Positions 1 through 46,709 of a DNA stretch of 64,000 bases are shown here, piece by piece (position 1 is the stretch's first letter; every line of letters starts with the position of its first letter). The position numbers and the translations under genes were made by a program. The notes below the pieces were generated by a model. It saw only the letters and a program-made list of their open reading frames with translations, searched no databases and was not told the origin of the DNA. The DNA lies in assembly GCA_017542125.1 (NCBI GenBank), contig JAFXXU010000031.1, forward strand, positions 18,229 to 82,228, given 5' to 3'. The stretch is from Ruminococcus sp. (GTDB taxonomy: Bacteria; Bacillota; Clostridia; Oscillospirales; Ruminococcaceae).

Positions 1-593
1 TTGGTCATAGCTATATTCGAGCTTTCCATCGGAATACCGTTTTTGCGGCAGATCTCTGAGATAAGATCAAACACAGTCTCACCCTCTCTGATCTCTACCT
101 CGCTGCGGGGGAAAATGATACCGTCCTTAGGAATGACGTCTATCACTCCTGCGCGGAGCTTGTCCAGATTGTCGAATACTGTGGCGCAGGAGATCATAAA
201 TGTGCAGGTCTCAGCCTTGACAGGCGGCTCCGTGACCTTTTCCGTGGTCGTTACCGTCTCTGTACGGGTGACGGTCTCGGTCTGTGTTGCCTTTTGCTCG
301 GATACAGAGGTCTGAGTTTCCGGCGGAGCAGTTTCGGTCGGCACAGATGTTTCTGAGGGCGCCTCAGTAACGGCAGACGTATCCGGAGGGGCAGTAACGC
401 TCTCCGGAACAGTCTGCTCTGTCAGGGGTATTGACGTAACAACAGCCGTTAAAGTGACCGTAGTTGTCTGTGTTGTTTCAGGAGTCTTATCGGAAGTAAC
501 ATCGCTGCCCGAAAAGTATGCAGCCGTCAGCGCACCGGCGATAATGACTACCGCCAGCGCAGACTTTATCAGCTTTTTGAGCTTCTCGGACAT
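1..593 (-). CDS. Membrane-anchored DUF4430 (transcobalamin beta-like) protein, C-terminus cut by window edge
   Basis: The reading frame opens with ATG at 593 behind a GGAGGC ribosome site and runs off the window start, so only about 197 residues are seen. There is a basic N-terminus and one hydrophobic segment (residues about 9-27). A Thr/Pro/Glu-rich linker follows (about 35-130, many TET and TVT runs), then a domain resembling DUF4430, the bacterial relative of the cobalamin-binding beta domain of transcobalamin and intrinsic factor. The long linker suits a domain held away from the membrane across the wall. It lies 19 bp after the wall-anchored DUF4430/alpha-alpha protein and shares its riboswitch-controlled operon. 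Corrinoid capture is inferred from family and riboswitch; the ligand is not proven. Confidence 0.8.
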   Translation of the reverse strand, partial: MSEKLKKLIKSALAVVIIAGALTAAYFSGSDVTSDKTPETTQTTTVTLTAVVTSIPLTEQTVPESVTAPPDTSAVTEAPSETSVPTETAPPETQTSVSEQKATQTETVTRTETVTTTEKVTEPPVKAETCTFMISCATVFDNLDKLRAGVIDVIPKDGIIFPRSEVEIREGETVFDLISEICRKNGIPMESSNIAMT

Positions 594-612
594 AGGATGC
601 CTCCGTTATTAC

Positions 613-2511
613 TTATTTTCTCTTTCTGCTTGCTGCAGCTGCTGCTCCGGCAAGAAGTATCATTACCATACCTGCTGCCGCACCTGTAGGAGGATTGGAG
701 CCCTCTTCCTCGGTGTAAGGAACCAGCTTATCAGCAGTGAAATCATATATAGCAGACATATTGTTGGTGAGCCTGTAATAAGAGGTCAGCGCCAGGAATG
801 CCTGCTCTGTGGACATCGAATCAGCTGTGCCGCCCTTAAGATGTGCGAACTCGCCGCTGCCGAGATAGTATGCAGCTATGCCGTCCATAAGCGAAACGCC
901 GTTCTTAATGAAGCGCTCATCCTCGGCACCGTTGATGCCTGCGGAGGAAAGAGCGATCATTACCTGTGCGGTAGACTCACAGTTGCCGTAGGAACCGTCC
1001 TCGCCCTGCTTGGAGGAGAGCCATTCAACAGCCTTTGCAACAGCATCGGCAGTCGACTCATCTCCGGCAAGTGCGGTGATGCACATAGCAGTGATATCAA
1101 CGTCCTCGGTCTGACCGTCAAAGGAGAATGCGCCGCTTTCGAGCTGTGCATCAAGAAGGTCGGCAGTATGTACTCCCTCGGCGCCTACTCCGGTAAGAGC
1201 GATATTAGCCCAGATGTCACCGGTTATGCCCTGGATGGATGTGAAGTCCTCATCCTTTACAGCCGTGAGCATATCGGTTCCTGCATACTTAGTGGGGTCA
1301 TAGCCCAGAGCAGCCGCAGCAACGGACTCCTTTGAGTTCTCGGTAGAACGTCTGTCGTTGAGCTTGCCGTCCTTGGCGGTCTTTGCATATTCGGCAAGAG
1401 CCTTGGCGAATGCAGCCTTGCTCTTTTCGGAGAGCTTGCCTGCTCTTGCAAGGCCTATCATTTTCCACTCCGCACCGATGGCGGGTTCTGTCTCGGAAAG
1501 CTTCTCGGCAGTTTCCTCAAACATCTTGTTGAAGGAAGCGTCTACTTCTTTCTTTTTCAGCTCTTTGAGCTTTGCAACAGCCGCTTCCAGAACATCGGCG
1601 TTGCCTACGAGCTGCTTCTGAGTATCGTTCAGCCTGAGATAAGCGGTCTCAGCATCGGTGACAGTCTTCTCATTCTCGAGAGTTACCTCTCCGATAGCGT
1701 CGATCAGTTCTTCGACTTCCTTTGCAGCAACGAGAGCATCACCGGTGATATCCGAAACAATATTCAGAGTATAAACGGTCTCGGTCTGGCCGTAGTTCGT
1801 CGAAGGCCATGCGGGATCTCCGCAGCCGATTATGAGCTTATCGCCGTCTACTACTTCAATAGCATCGCCCCGTCTGTAATCAGCCGAGGACTCAGGAGCG
1901 TATTCATTCTTGTATGTTCTTACCTGGAAATTCTTGTTCAAAGCTGTGGGCAGAACGCTTACCTCGGAAACACCTGAAAGGGTGAGAGTGTACTCTGTCA
2001 CCTCGGGGGAGAACTCCTTGTCAAGAGTACCGGCCGAAACAGTAAGAGCTGAAAGCGAGGTATCGGTGCCGAGCCAGTCGCTGCCTATATCGGAGCCCCA
2101 GTCCAGAGTGTACTGAACGTCGATGACATCTCCTGCGGTAACGCCGCCGTTGGCAACGGTATAACTTGAAGCGACCTCCGTAGTGAACCAATCGTTGAGG
2201 GTCAGCATCCAGGAGCCGTTCAGGTCAGCAACGGTGTCAAAACCGCCCCAGGAAGACAGTTCATATGTCTTGCCCTCAGCAGTAAGCGCATCGCAGACTA
2301 CGGTGAGCATATCGGAGTCTGCCTTGAGGGGCACCTCTGTTTCGATAAGCACGCCCGACCAGGCTGCACCCTTATCCTTTGACAGTGTGTTGTTTTCCAC
2401 GATGACCTTAACGGTCGCCGCCTCTGTGTCGGCAGCAAAAGCAGCAGCGGGCAGTACGCCCAATGCCAGCAGAGCTGCAGCCGATACCGAGATGATTCTT
2501 TTTGCGATCAT
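613..2511 (-). CDS. Wall-anchored transcobalamin-like protein (DUF4430 + cadherin-like + alpha/alpha domain)
   Basis: This 632-residue surface protein has a signal peptide (1-26, ending AFA). The domains in order are a DUF4430-like domain (about 30-145, with the typical WMLTLND and GDVIDVQYT strands), a cadherin-like beta-sandwich (about 150-255), a helical linker (about 258-335) and an alpha/alpha repeat region like the prenyltransferase/squalene-cyclase fold (about 340-595, with motifs such as WLSSKQGEDGSYG). The end is NPPTG, a hydrophobic stretch and RKRK, a sortase-type wall signal. Human transcobalamin combines an alpha/alpha barrel with a DUF4430-like beta domain, so both halves of a B12-binding fold are present here in reversed order. 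The start codon overlaps the preceding stop (ATGA). The cobalamin riboswitch upstream supports corrinoid capture, which remains inference. Confidence 0.82.
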   Translation of the reverse strand: MIAKRIISVSAAALLALGVLPAAAFAADTEAATVKVIVENNTLSKDKGAAWSGVLIETEVPLKADSDMLTVVCDALTAEGKTYELSSWGGFDTVADLNGSWMLTLNDWFTTEVASSYTVANGGVTAGDVIDVQYTLDWGSDIGSDWLGTDTSLSALTVSAGTLDKEFSPEVTEYTLTLSGVSEVSVLPTALNKNFQVRTYKNEYAPESSADYRRGDAIEVVDGDKLIIGCGDPAWPSTNYGQTETVYTLNIVSDITGDALVAAKEVEELIDAIGEVTLENEKTVTDAETAYLRLNDTQKQLVGNADVLEAAVAKLKELKKKEVDASFNKMFEETAEKLSETEPAIGAEWKMIGLARAGKLSEKSKAAFAKALAEYAKTAKDGKLNDRRSTENSKESVAAAALGYDPTKYAGTDMLTAVKDEDFTSIQGITGDIWANIALTGVGAEGVHTADLLDAQLESGAFSFDGQTEDVDITAMCITALAGDESTADAVAKAVEWLSSKQGEDGSYGNCESTAQVMIALSSAGINGAEDERFIKNGVSLMDGIAAYYLGSGEFAHLKGGTADSMSTEQAFLALTSYYRLTNNMSAIYDFTADKLVPYTEEEGSNPPTGAAAGMVMILLAGAAAAASRKRK

Positions 2512-2780
2512 GATTCTTCCTCCGTCTTTAAAGATTTTTTCAGGAGCTTTCTACGTTCTGCCGCACGCCTGCGCTTCTGCTTGCTGAGCAATGCCGCAGG
2601 AGGCTTTACCGCCTCTTTGAGACCTGCCTTTTCAAGCGCCCTGGGAAAAGGCCCCAGCTTCTGCTTGATAAAGCAGACTTCTTCAGGAGTAAAATCGCTG
2701 CGCTTGGGCAGCCTCCCCAGCTCTGCCTGCTTGCTTATAAGGAGTGTGAGCGCGCGCTTAAGCTTGTCATCTTCAGCCAC
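2508..2780 (-). CDS. Small protein with one homing-endonuclease-associated (HNH_repeat-like) module
   Basis: This 90-residue basic protein is the first gene after the cobalamin riboswitch and overlaps the next start by ATGA, so translation is probably coupled. Residues about 17-57 (LGRLPKRSDF, then LGPFPRALEKAGL) fit the short helical repeat found beside HNH homing nucleases and in many small Firmicute DNA-binding proteins. No nuclease motif is present. The C-terminus is Lys/Arg-rich. A DNA-binding role is possible but its part in a B12 operon is unknown. Confidence 0.72.
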   Translation of the reverse strand: MAEDDKLKRALTLLISKQAELGRLPKRSDFTPEEVCFIKQKLGPFPRALEKAGLKEAVKPPAALLSKQKRRRAAERRKLLKKSLKTEEES

Positions 2781-2814
2781 GGCTTATCCCCCCTCTACAG
2801 ACATTCGGCACAAC

Positions 2815-2847
2815 AAAAAAGCTCCCTCCGTCCCAAACGGAGAAAGC
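2815..2847 (-). terminator. Intrinsic terminator at the end of the cobalamin leader
   Basis: On the minus strand an 11-bp stem (2837-2847 with 2821-2831, two G-U pairs, TTGGG loop) is followed by six T. It lies between the riboswitch aptamer and the first gene, so it is the likely expression platform: cobalamin binding would favour termination. Confidence 0.75.
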
Positions 2848-2989
2848 ACAGCAAAACAAACCGTATCGCCTGCATTTGTTTTTGGGTACAGCAAAGCTGA
2901 GCCCTGCAAATTCATCGGGCAAAACAGTTTATTGGCTGCACTTCTTCTTGTCCAAGACGGCGATACCGTTCAAGCCCGTTTAAAAGACG

Positions 2990-3095
2990 GACCAAGCCTG
3001 CGGGAGTATTCTGACTTTGACAGTAATGACAGTTGTGACGGGATCCCACCGCGCTTCCCAATTACAGACCCTTTCGGGACGACCGCAGACTTATA
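2990..3095 (-). ncRNA. Cobalamin riboswitch
   Basis: Read on the minus strand this leader contains the conserved cobalamin aptamer blocks in order: GGGAAG, GGTG, ATCC, CACAACTGT and AGTCAGAATAC. A closing P1 stem pairs CTGCGG (3088-3083) with CCGCAG (3003-2998). A CCCGAAAGGG hairpin precedes the GGGAAG block. It lies about 20 nt after a strong promoter and 150 nt before a terminator hairpin, so it probably acts by transcription attenuation. It looks like a short clostridial form without the long peripheral arms. The downstream DUF4430 genes independently fit corrinoid control. Confidence 0.8.
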
Positions 3096-3110
3096 TTCGG
3101 TTGTACTTTC

Positions 3111-3139
3111 AGTATATTACAGATTTCGTCAATTGTCAA
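3111..3139 (-). promoter_or_regulatory. Sigma-A promoter of the cobalamin riboswitch operon
   Basis: On the minus strand TTGACA (3139-3134) and TATACT (3116-3111) are separated by 17 bp. It starts directly after the T-tract of the GH3 terminator. Confidence 0.8.
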
Positions 3140-3144
3140 GAGAA

Positions 3145-44134: not shown

Positions 44135-44851
44135 TCAGATAAAATTTTCAAGCGATCTGGTCAGTATCTTTGTGCGTTTTGTATATATCATATCTATCCT
44201 GCCGCCGAAAAAGGCTTCAAAGGCCTCAAAGACCACATTGGTGTTAAGGTTGAACTCGCTGCCTGCGGGCAGTCTGAGAGACACCCTGGCATACTCCCCC
44301 TCCGAAGAGATGGAGAGCAGGTTTATGTGGGGCTTTATATCAACGAGATTGGCTCCCCGCTTCTTGGAGCGCTTTTCCACCTCTATCTTCTCCTGAGAGA
44401 GGAAATCTGAAAAGCACCGGGCGGTCTCATCGCCGGTCTGCCCCTTAACGCTGAAATCTACCTCATACTCCGCAAAGACTATCTCCGTATGCTTCATTAC
44501 GGGCTCCCCTGCCGAGACGATACGCAGCCCCTCGGGCATACTGGTATTCATCTTATCCCGTAGCTCATCAAAGGGCAGCTGCTCGGTAAGGGCTATGTCA
44601 AGTATCTCAACACTGGAATCCGTACCGAGTGAGAGTGCCAGCGGGAACATCAGATAGGCGTGGGGGTTGAATCCCTGTGTGTACCAAAGAGGGATCCCCG
44701 CCCTCTTGAAGGCTCGCTGAAAGCAGCGCATAAGGTCAAGGTGGGAAATGTATTTGGCTCTGCCCGTCTTTTCAAAGACCAAGCGGTATTCGTATTTCGT
44801 CAGACGGAGATTCTGGTTCTTCGGCTGGAGCATTTCAGCCACAGTAAACAC
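44135..44851 (-). CDS. TIGR03936 family radical SAM-associated protein (DUF2344)
   Basis: This 238-residue protein has the DUF2344 blocks FEKTGRAKYISHLDLMRCFQRAFKRAG (about 27-53) and YTQGFNPHAYLMFPLALSLG. It is the usual partner of TIGR03960 radical SAM proteins; in some genomes the two are fused. Its GTG start overlaps the upstream gene by 17 bp. The reaction is unknown, though an RNA-modification role has been suggested by context in other genomes. Confidence 0.9.
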   Translation of the reverse strand: MFTVAEMLQPKNQNLRLTKYEYRLVFEKTGRAKYISHLDLMRCFQRAFKRAGIPLWYTQGFNPHAYLMFPLALSLGTDSSVEILDIALTEQLPFDELRDKMNTSMPEGLRIVSAGEPVMKHTEIVFAEYEVDFSVKGQTGDETARCFSDFLSQEKIEVEKRSKKRGANLVDIKPHINLLSISSEGEYARVSLRLPAGSEFNLNTNVVFEAFEAFFGGRIDMIYTKRTKILTRSLENFI

Positions 44852-46709
44852 CCCCGCATTCCTTTTTTATCCCGCAGCCGGAGCAACCCTCGGCACAGTT
44901 GCGGGTGGTCTTGCCCTCATGGGCTTTCTTGTTCTCCCGGACAAAGAATTCGTGGGACACCAGATAATCCAGGTGAGACCAGGGCGCCACCTCCTCATAA
45001 GAGCGGCGGCGGTTGGCGTAGAAGGCCGTGTCGGTATGACATTCCTCAAAGGCCTCCTGCCAAAGGTCAAAACGGAAATGCTCGTCCCAGCTGTCGAGGG
45101 TGCAGCCCTTTTTCCAGGCACAGTATATCGTGTCGGCCAGGCGGCGGTCGCCCCTCGCAAGGACGCCCTCCAGGATAGAAACATTCATCTGGTGGTAGCT
45201 TATCTTGATCTTCTTGGACTTGATGCAGTCAAGCAGATGCCCCTGGCGGTGCTTGATCTGCTCGGGGGTAGCCTGAGGCTCGAATTCAAAGGGCGTAAAG
45301 GGCTTCGGCACGAAGGTCGCGCAGGATACCGACACCTGAACACTCTTGCCCCGAAGGTTCTTGGGGGTCTCGTAGTAGAGATCGACCACCTTCTGAGCCA
45401 GATCGGCTATGCCCTCGATGTCCTCATCCGTCTCGTCGGGGAGGCCCAGCATAAAGTAGAGCTTCACCGCCTGATAGCCCTCGGAGAAGGCAAGACGGCA
45501 GGTGCGCATGATCTCTTCCTCGGTGATGTTCTTGTTTATAACGTCCCGCAGGCGCTGAGTTCCGGCCTCGGGTGCGAAGGTAAGGCCGCTCTTTCTGACA
45601 GCGGCGAGCCTGTCAACTATCTCCTTGCTCATTGTGTCGATACGCAGCGAGGGCAGGGAGAGGTTGATGTTCTCCTTGTCTGTGTAGTCTGAAAGGCGGG
45701 TGAGCAGCTCGATTATCTTGGTATGGTCGCTGGTGGAGAGAGATGAAAGGGATACCTGCTCATAGCCTGTCTGCTCGCAGAGGGTCTTTGTCTCGTTGGC
45801 TATGGTGTCGATATTCTTCTCCCGGAAGGGGCGGTAGATAAATCCCGCCTGACAGAAGCGGCAGCCTCTTATGCAGCCCCGCAGCACCTCAACCACCACT
45901 CTGTCGTGGACTATCCCGGTAAAGGGAACGACAAAGCTGTCAGGGTAGTATGCGTGGTCGAAGTCGGGGATGACCCGCTTCTTTATCTTCGGCTTAGCCT
46001 CGGGGACGTTGGGGGTTATGGAGGCAACGGTGCCGTCCTCATTATATTCCACATCGTAGAACTGCGGGACGTAGATGCCCTCGATCTTAGCGGCCTCGCG
46101 GAGGAATTCCTCCTTTGAGGGGTTATGGGGCTTCATCCTCTCGTAGAGGTGCATAAGCTCCAGGTTTACCTCTTCCCCCTCACCGAGGATGAAAAGGTCA
46201 AAAAATGCGGCTATGGGCTCCGGGTTGCAGACGCAGGGGCCTCCACCGACGACTATGGGCATAAGCCCCTTTCTGTCCTTGGCATACACGGGCAGGCCGG
46301 CGAGATCCAGCATTTCAAGTACATTTGTAAAGGAGAGCTCGTATTGCAGTGTGAAGCCGATGAAATCAAAGTCCCTGATAGGGTCCAGGCTTTCAAGGGC
46401 ATAAAGGGGGATGTCATTCTCGCGCATAAGGGCTTCAAAATCCTTTTCGGGCATAAATACCCTCTCGCACCAGAAATTCGGCACGGCGTTCTTAAGCCCG
46501 TAGAGTATCTTCATCCCCAGGTGGGACATCCCGACGTCGTAGACATCGGGGAAGCAGAAGGCAAAGCGGACGTCCACCTTGCTTTTATCCTTGACAACGC
46601 TGCCATGCTCGCCGCCGATGTAGCGGGCGGGCTTCTGGGTCTTAAGAAGCAGCTGTTCCACTTTGTTTCTTATTTCTTCCAAGGGCTTGACCTCCTTTTT
46701 ATCCGTCAC
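44835..46709 (-). CDS. TIGR03960 family B12-binding-domain radical SAM protein
   Basis: This 624-residue protein has an N-terminal B12-binding-like Rossmann domain (about 45-175; FCFPDVYDVGMSHLG, IVVGGGP) and a radical SAM core (about 265-480) with the cluster motif CIRGCRFC. A C-terminal region ends in a Cys-rich tail (CAEGCSGCGIKKECGG) that could bind a further cluster. No substrate is established. It overlaps the M50 peptidase gene by 11 bp and the TIGR03936 gene by 17 bp, so the three form an operon. Confidence 0.92.
   Translation of the reverse strand: MTDKKEVKPLEEIRNKVEQLLLKTQKPARYIGGEHGSVVKDKSKVDVRFAFCFPDVYDVGMSHLGMKILYGLKNAVPNFWCERVFMPEKDFEALMRENDIPLYALESLDPIRDFDFIGFTLQYELSFTNVLEMLDLAGLPVYAKDRKGLMPIVVGGGPCVCNPEPIAAFFDLFILGEGEEVNLELMHLYERMKPHNPSKEEFLREAAKIEGIYVPQFYDVEYNEDGTVASITPNVPEAKPKIKKRVIPDFDHAYYPDSFVVPFTGIVHDRVVVEVLRGCIRGCRFCQAGFIYRPFREKNIDTIANETKTLCEQTGYEQVSLSSLSTSDHTKIIELLTRLSDYTDKENINLSLPSLRIDTMSKEIVDRLAAVRKSGLTFAPEAGTQRLRDVINKNITEEEIMRTCRLAFSEGYQAVKLYFMLGLPDETDEDIEGIADLAQKVVDLYYETPKNLRGKSVQVSVSCATFVPKPFTPFEFEPQATPEQIKHRQGHLLDCIKSKKIKISYHQMNVSILEGVLARGDRRLADTIYCAWKKGCTLDSWDEHFRFDLWQEAFEECHTDTAFYANRRRSYEEVAPWSHLDYLVSHEFFVRENKKAHEGKTTRNCAEGCSGCGIKKECGGVYCG

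Follow-up and report, generated by a model that had tools for sequence, protein, structure and literature searches.

A candidate B12-riboswitch operon for capture and uptake of B12 in a Ruminococcus-like bacterium, headed by a gene for a small HNH_repeat protein

RESULTS

Five genes behind one promoter

The window, a stretch of 64,000 nucleotides, covers bases 18229 to 82228 of contig C31 in a 2.9-Mb draft genome of a Ruminococcus-like gut bacterium. At its left end, on the minus strand, lies an operon predicted to serve the capture and uptake of vitamin B12 (cobalamin). From the promoter to its end, it is composed of a leader and five genes for an HNH_repeat protein, a 632-residue wall protein, a 264-residue DUF4430 protein, EcfT, and an EcfA-EcfA'-S fusion of an energy-coupling factor (ECF) transporter. 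The operon runs past the left edge of the window, so that the three genes counted in an earlier note, which had been made from the window alone, were too few. The next long reading frame beyond the fusion gene is on the opposite strand.

The 5' edge of the operon is a promoter at 3111 to 3139(-), with a −35 motif TTGACA at 3139-3134, a spacer of 17 nucleotides, and a −10 motif TATACT at 3116-3111, which together match 11 of the 12 consensus positions. A similar element precedes the aptamer in related leaders, as judged by eye. Gene 1 (2508-2780, minus strand, as are all of the following) encodes 90 residues and matches PF18780 with 31.4 bits (cut-off 26). Its stop codon overlaps the start of gene 2 (613-2511) by four bases, ATGA, in the window. 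Gene 3 occupies positions 1 to 593, with its last 67 residues, about 200 bases, to the left of the window. It is therefore also given in coordinates of L002 (L002:18027-18821), which are used for all genes to the left. Both remaining genes are wholly outside the window: gene 4 (L002:17134-18024) for EcfT, with 296 residues and a PF02361 match of 38.5 bits (cut-off 25), and gene 5 (L002:14597-17203) for the 868-residue EcfA-EcfA'-S fusion.

The identical order of five genes was present in ten loci, namely, the window, eight genomes of the same genus (L045 to L052), and an uncultured Ruminococcus (L020); L005 duplicates the contig of L045 and was not counted separately. Among 16 loci in named genomes, the closest was L005, from a sheep-rumen Ruminococcus metagenome genome, with 60% identity in the wall protein. 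A search of the genus matched the wall protein in 13 of 16 genomes, in 9 of these with at least 400 bits.

A probable B12-type riboswitch in the leader

The leader contains a predicted riboswitch at 2815-3097(-) consisting of an aptamer, an antiterminator, and a terminator. The compact aptamer (2994-3097) comprises P1 and three inner helices and was delimited by a match to the AdoCbl-II family RF01689 below the cut-off and by the consensus fold of seven sequences. The match, from a search with relaxed thresholds, was located at 2995-3070(-) and reached 23.4 bits versus a cut-off of 36.5, with an E-value of 0.0061 for the 601 bases searched. The prediction of a cobalamin riboswitch with a downstream terminator was upheld, with the Rfam match of the window copy below the cut-off. 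In the whole genome, RF00174 gave 0 matches. When the genome was searched with RF01689 (150 of 220 candidates were scored), the leader site was absent from the output, which contained two 14.4-bit matches with E-values above 4 on other contigs. At the equivalent place in the same operon, an Rfam cut-off was passed in 4 of 9 related loci, by L047 for RF01689 (36.8 bits) and by L020, L051, and L052 for RF00174 (42.8, 32.4, and 31.7 bits). One operon family with one expression platform (the window, L045 to L052, and L020) carries a compact aptamer in seven loci and an extended one of the RF00174 type in three.

The consensus fold of the seven leaders contained 70 pairs, and in 22 of them both partners had changed in a compensatory manner at least once. 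A kissing loop between L5 and L13 is a feature of the cobalamin riboswitches of Rfam clan CL00101. In the window, the L5 loop UGUC (3028-3031) pairs with the L13 loop GACA (2949-2952), and the two loops covary in relatives, with CGUC/GACG, CGCC/GGCG, and CGCC/GGUG among the types. Across 15 loci, 57 of 60 pairs form, with the register of L13 set by eye and offset by one base in L053 and L055. When the seven distinct types were permuted, 18 of 5,040 permutations reached the observed value.

The 5' strand of the antiterminator, AAGAAGAAGUGCAGCC (2934-2949), follows directly after L13 and forms a duplex of −14.0 kcal/mol with the 3' strand, UGCUGUGCUUUCUC (2840-2853); 6 of 500 shuffles were as stable. 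In ten leaders, this duplex ranged from −11.0 to −19.0 kcal/mol, a stability that was reached by 0 to 15 of 500 shuffles. The 3' strand overlaps the 5' arm of an intrinsic terminator (2815-2847), a 12-bp stem at 2847-2821 followed by UUUUUU with −17.8 kcal/mol. Folding of the whole leader was also better than that of shuffled sequences, with a z-score of −2.73 and 1 shuffle in 200 reaching its value. The predicted riboswitch can adopt two mutually exclusive structures.

A riboswitch model of our own, R1, was built on seven leaders. It matched in exactly those 9 genomes of the genus with a wall protein of at least 400 bits, at one place each; for most genomes, 150 candidates were scored, and seven of the nine genomes had built R1 and match by construction. 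Independent matches were those of L051 (72.6 bits), L052 (76.8 bits), and L020 (63.3 bits). Because of the Rfam passes at the same place in relatives, the compensatory changes in the fold, the covarying kissing loop, the complementarity of the antiterminator, and the folding better than shuffles, the window leader looks like a real B12-type riboswitch despite its low Rfam score. From the riboswitch class and the anatomy, the ligand should be B12, and the bound state should be the off state.

Two surface proteins of the transcobalamin type

The wall protein starts with a signal-peptide-like sequence, followed by a DUF4430 domain, a cadherin-like beta-sandwich, a helical linker, an alpha/alpha toroid, and a sorting-like tail; signal peptide and linker were assigned by eye. 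DUF4430 is the family of the transcobalamin beta-domain. Its assignment at 2086-2415 comes from orthologs and from profile-profile comparison. At an E-value of 0.01 or below, DUF4430 was matched by 8 of the 10 whole proteins in a set made up of the window protein and its orthologs, and at 1 or below by 9 of the 10 cut-out domains, the best with 3.4e-10. Compared as profiles, this domain and the DUF4430 of the 264-residue protein gave 98.6% with an E-value of 1.2e-15. The cadherin-like domain (1759-2055) had a match to PF12733 below threshold in the window copy and at 0.01 or below in 4 of 10 orthologs. The toroid (727-1515, residues 333 to 595) was identified by profile search, with squalene-hopene-cyclase-type proteins as the top PDB matches (3e-19). 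PF01122, the eukaryotic cobalamin-binding family, was matched at 1 or below by 6 of 26 toroids, the best with 4.1e-7. Residues 348 to 573 of the toroid also matched the phage protein family phrog_38184 (8.3e-18). At 616-696, the protein ends in SNPPTG, a hydrophobic stretch, and RKRK, which reached 22.0 bits with NF033846 (Rumino_NPXTG; cut-off 23.5). Four sortase-domain matches, all above the cut-off, were found in the genome, and the 632-residue protein would be anchored to the cell wall by its NPPTG-like tail.

The 264-residue protein has a DUF4430 domain well above the cut-off (PF14478, 56.4 versus 23.8 bits), a hydrophobic N-terminal segment, and a Thr-rich stalk, the latter two recognized by eye. 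The architectures that the earlier note had proposed for both surface proteins were supported, with a sorting-like tail on the wall protein and the stalk plain in the sequence. PDB searches with the single sequences of both proteins yielded weak rows only, and matches of profile A4 were confined to low-complexity stretches.

In eight relatives (L009, L013, L015, L016, L018, L019, L077, and L078, with the sequence of L019 ending inside the domain), the toroid comes first and DUF4430 last in one protein, which is the order in transcobalamin. The fused protein directly precedes EcfT in six of them: L009, L013, L015, L016, L018, and L078. With an iterated profile seeded by the 264-residue protein, the DUF4430 of the fused proteins scored 82 to 143 bits (L077, 135; L078, 99), and the wall proteins' own DUF4430 scored 40 to 86 bits. 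By a Rosetta-stone argument from these fused relatives, a single transcobalamin-like site may be split between the two surface proteins, with the wall protein contributing the toroid and the membrane protein the DUF4430. Alternatively, each surface protein might bind B12 independently, since each has its own DUF4430. In addition, a secreted-looking protein of about 250 to 280 residues follows the HNH_repeat gene in L009 (4722-5531), L018 (5013-5846), L119, L125, L127, L130, L132, and L148; it has a DADGDG-like motif, a DUF4430-like stretch seen by eye, and a sorting-like tail.

The wall protein could also be an adhesin or a polysaccharide binder that is merely co-regulated with B12 uptake. Its modular surface architecture with cadherin-like and helical linker domains would fit this, as would the fact that the closest solved relatives of the toroid are not B12 binders. 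Fused toroid-DUF4430 proteins directly before EcfT in the six relatives named above and the PF01122 matches of the toroids speak against a simple adhesin, which we consider improbable and have rejected.

A CbrT-like ECF transporter and the probable B12 need of the host

A transporter had been expected beyond the left edge of the window, and ECF genes were found there. A profile of the S part, built with nine separate S proteins of relatives (226 to 245 residues), had 6fnp_A as its sole significant relative in the PDB (7.4e-18), followed by the next S-component at 0.025. 6FNP is the structure of ECF-CbrT, and CbrT is an S-component for B12 (PMC5997447). With EcfT, two EcfA domains, and a CbrT-like S-component, a CbrT-type ECF set is complete in the operon and would import B12.

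The genome contains two matches to the B12-binding domain, a strong one of 100.5 bits inside an 804-residue MetH-like reading frame (named by eye) and one below the cut-off. The latter (22 bits, cut-off 32.1) is located in a radical-SAM-like reading frame, also named by eye, at 44835-46709(-) of the window. CbiD, the only B12 synthesis gene sought, had no match in the assembly, which is 90.5% complete, and was present in 6 of 14 control genomes. B12 auxotrophy of the host is likely.

EcfT belongs to PF02361, the CbiQ family, and the ECF genes could therefore be CbiOQ-like and import cobalt instead of B12. This was rejected as very improbable, the least probable of the alternatives considered, because the S part matches CbrT, the surface proteins are of the transcobalamin family, and the missing CbiD match leaves little sign of a B12 synthesis that needs cobalt. 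Moreover, inspection of the operon by eye showed no CbiM; no dedicated CbiM search was made.

The HNH_repeat protein, a candidate member of the B12 regulon

The first gene of the operon, which had not been recognized as that of an HNH_repeat protein in the earlier note, is its least explained part. The protein has an isoelectric point (pI) of 10.2 and no signal peptide by eye. All 12 members of alignment A5, which covers 12 of 15 loci, matched PF18780 at 0.01 or below, and 11 of the 16 genomes of the genus contained a match. A second frame in one of them (G012:C13:2654-2989; 226 residues) has two HNH_repeat matches and is located away from the B12 operon.

In the family, A5 was matched in 8 of 119 genomes at 1e-6 or below, two of them with the operon type of the window. 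Four loci (L077, L078, L079, and L081) have a toroid/DUF4430/ECF context and a riboswitch, at an Rfam cut-off in three and by R1 in L078 (60.7 bits). The gene in L076 is located downstream of an RF00174 riboswitch (82.8 bits), and that in L080 (5004-8308) heads a Peripla_BP_2/FecCD transporter set of unproven substrate, without a riboswitch match.

In the order, 54 places were found in 52 of 394 genomes, one place in 50 and two in two; the remaining 342 had no match. The matches span 29 of 169 genera, that of the window included. Subtraction of the window and G108 (the same as L081) left 52 loci, which are not independent of each other. A B12 riboswitch on the same strand was present within 700 nucleotides upstream in 47 of the 52, in 40 at an Rfam cut-off and in 7 by R1 only, among them L120 with an E-value of 0.0028. 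The distance from the riboswitch to the domain was 77 to 318 nucleotides (median, 170). A toroid, DUF4430, or EcfT gene was found in 45 of the 52 stretches, some of which were limited by contig ends.

Five loci had no same-strand riboswitch within these 700 nucleotides. Three of them have toroid, DUF4430, or ECF genes nonetheless, namely, L115, L145 (riboswitch on the opposite strand), and L152 (contig end with little upstream sequence). In L121 (1749-5124), the gene heads a set of CobT (PF02277), CobU, and CobS without an upstream riboswitch, and in L136 (1476-6163), it heads hem genes only, GlutR (hemA) and ALAD (hemB) plus hemC and a hemL-like gene by eye. In two similar loci, a second cobalamin riboswitch follows the HNH_repeat gene and precedes its downstream neighbor (L123:4838-4985(-) and L133:1442-1589(-)). 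Therefore, the small gene there has a riboswitch of its own. In the phylum, 4 of 398 genomes matched, that of the window among them and the other three more weakly; the gene in L166 is followed by a DUF4430-like surface protein, and L165 and L167 are without a B12 gene, all by eye.

The HNH_repeat frame is a coding gene under purifying selection. The ratio of nonsynonymous to synonymous substitution rates (dN/dS) was 0.11, 0.05, and 0.17 in three pairs, and dS was saturated in two others. Among the 73 distinct stretches matched, 72 had a pI above 9, and neither Cys nor His exceeded 30% in any column, a composition that fits a nucleic acid binder better than a role as a corrinoid ligand. PHROGs gave no match for the protein.

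The Pfam name and the two-repeat or multirepeat relatives elsewhere (G012:C13 and L167) would fit a frame that remains from a homing element and has no working part in the operon. Furthermore, the gene is absent from 12 of 26 related toroid loci within the stretches examined, some of them incomplete, and the system can therefore work without it. A homing relic was nevertheless rejected as highly improbable, for four reasons. Of the 52 matching genomes of the order, 50 have the gene at a single place; dN/dS is low, 0.05 to 0.17, in the three unsaturated pairs; in the window, the gene overlaps its downstream neighbor by ATGA; and 47 of the 52 loci have a B12 riboswitch a short distance upstream. 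These riboswitches, together with the cobT-cobU-cobS operon, suggest that the HNH_repeat protein is an unrecognized protein of the B12 regulon. A more specific idea, which we put forward tentatively and hold to be possible without being the probable outcome, is that of a dedicated nucleic acid binder of the B12 regulon in Clostridia, made first from B12-riboswitch leaders in front of different gene sets, those for toroid/DUF4430/ECF uptake and cobT-cobU-cobS, and acting as a second regulator on leaders or promoters. Of the two proposals, that of a split transcobalamin-like site is weaker than the assignment of the HNH_repeat protein to the B12 regulon.

DISCUSSION

A probable B12-repressed operon for capture and uptake

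With considerable confidence, the locus can be interpreted as an operon that is repressed by B12 and that allows a Ruminococcus-like bacterium, itself probably dependent on B12, to capture and import B12 or related corrinoids. Capture of B12 by the operon products is very likely. At low B12 concentrations, the antiterminator would form in the leader and all five genes would be transcribed. Outside the cell, B12 may then be caught by the wall protein and by the DUF4430 protein tethered to the membrane and be delivered to the CbrT-like S-component, and the ECF transporter would import it with ATP. At high concentrations, the ligand on the aptamer would favor the L5-L13 kissing loop, which should sequester the antiterminator strand, so that the terminator halts transcription. 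B12 binding by the surface proteins, the order of the hand-over, and the pairing of toroid and DUF4430 between them are predictions, and so is the relay from wall to membrane put forward in the earlier note.

Several results weigh against this interpretation. The riboswitch, the wall-protein DUF4430, and the toroid of the window are each below the curated cut-offs. An Rfam search of the window at the gathering cut-off returned no riboswitch, and the DUF4430 of the wall protein had no Pfam match with the window copy alone. The toroid of the window copy alone reached 17.5 bits with PF13243 and 12.2 bits with PF01122, both below the cut-off, and comparison of the window toroid with PF01122 gave 13.9 bits, again short of the cut-off of 25. 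The closest solved relatives of the toroid profile are terpene cyclases, with a transcobalamin chain in the PDB at an E-value of just 0.85, and no transcobalamin chain was among the PDB matches of the DUF4430 profile A7 at E-values up to 10. In NCBIfam, the S part was nearest to a folate-family model (25.9 bits, cut-off 60). Finally, with a DUF4430 in each of them, the two surface proteins might bind B12 separately.

Alternatively, the same operon may serve mainly for a different corrinoid, either cobinamide or a cobamide distinct from B12. CbrT supports growth on cobinamide as well as on cobalamin (PMC5997447), and the riboswitch class leaves the ligand unsettled. Nothing found argues specifically for another corrinoid, however, and the B12-dependent enzyme seen is MetH-like. 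Such a substrate is unlikely in our view, albeit the least unlikely of the alternatives to B12 capture and uptake.

Relation to known systems

Operons of this kind were already predicted in 2007 (PMC1796856), so that the concept is not new. Burroughs et al. described fusions of SLBB (DUF4430) and toroid domains, the toroid on either side of SLBB, and Gram-positive anchors, with the same operon also encoding a paralog with SLBB as well as CbiO and CbiQ. The hosts usually lack key enzymes of B12 synthesis, and B12 scavenging was proposed (PMC1796856). The operon of the window shares with them the secreted DUF4430 proteins, the toroid fusion, the anchor, the second SLBB protein, and the CbiO/CbiQ-type genes. 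The main text of that paper does not mention riboswitches, HNH, homing, or Ruminococcus. Unlike the operons described there, that of the window has its S-component fused to two ATPases, and the comparison of fused and split forms suggests a pairing of domains.

An experiment on such a DUF4430/toroid uptake system was not found in the open-access literature, which is weak evidence of absence because most subscription papers were outside the search. The 6 open-access papers with DUF4430, judged by titles and the beginnings of abstracts, contained none on bacterial B12; also within the open-access literature, no paper was found that combined NPXTG, Ruminococcus, and sortase or that linked HNH_repeat to B12. 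Within the literature searched, the sub-threshold riboswitch with its platform, the EcfA-EcfA'-S protein in one chain, the comparison of fused and split forms, and, above all, the link of HNH_repeat to B12 are new. The locus unites a B12 starvation switch, capture proteins of the transcobalamin type, and a B12 pump of a Firmicute in one testable operon. It also contains a small conserved protein with B12 genes as nearly constant neighbors, and identification of its target would give access to a level of B12 control in gut Clostridia that has not been studied.

The transporter resembles ECF-CbrT of Lactobacillus delbrueckii in being an ECF importer for B12 with a similar S part. CbrT is a separate protein on a shared ECF module, whereas the operon of the window encodes one 868-residue EcfA-EcfA'-S protein, its own EcfT, and extracellular binders (PMC5997447); the terms "lipoprotein," "riboswitch," and "fused" are absent from the main text of that publication. 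BtuG of Bacteroides is an analogue in its role, capturing B12 at the surface of a gut bacterium ahead of a transporter (PMC6143338). It is a surface lipoprotein, for which the abstract and outline of the paper state neither DUF4430 nor a toroid. The leader has the core, the kissing loop, and the downstream B12 genes of RF01689 and RF00174 riboswitches with a window copy below the Rfam cut-off; a 2010 paper listed RF01689 as marine (PMC2864571).

The surface proteins, with a toroid and a DUF4430-type domain, resemble animal transcobalamin and intrinsic factor, and eight relatives have even the same domain order. Animal transcobalamin and intrinsic factor are soluble carriers. The wall protein of the window differs from the animal protein in its reverse domain order, its sorting-like tail, and its extra domains, and the fused relatives could guide structural studies of the possible origin of the animal carriers.

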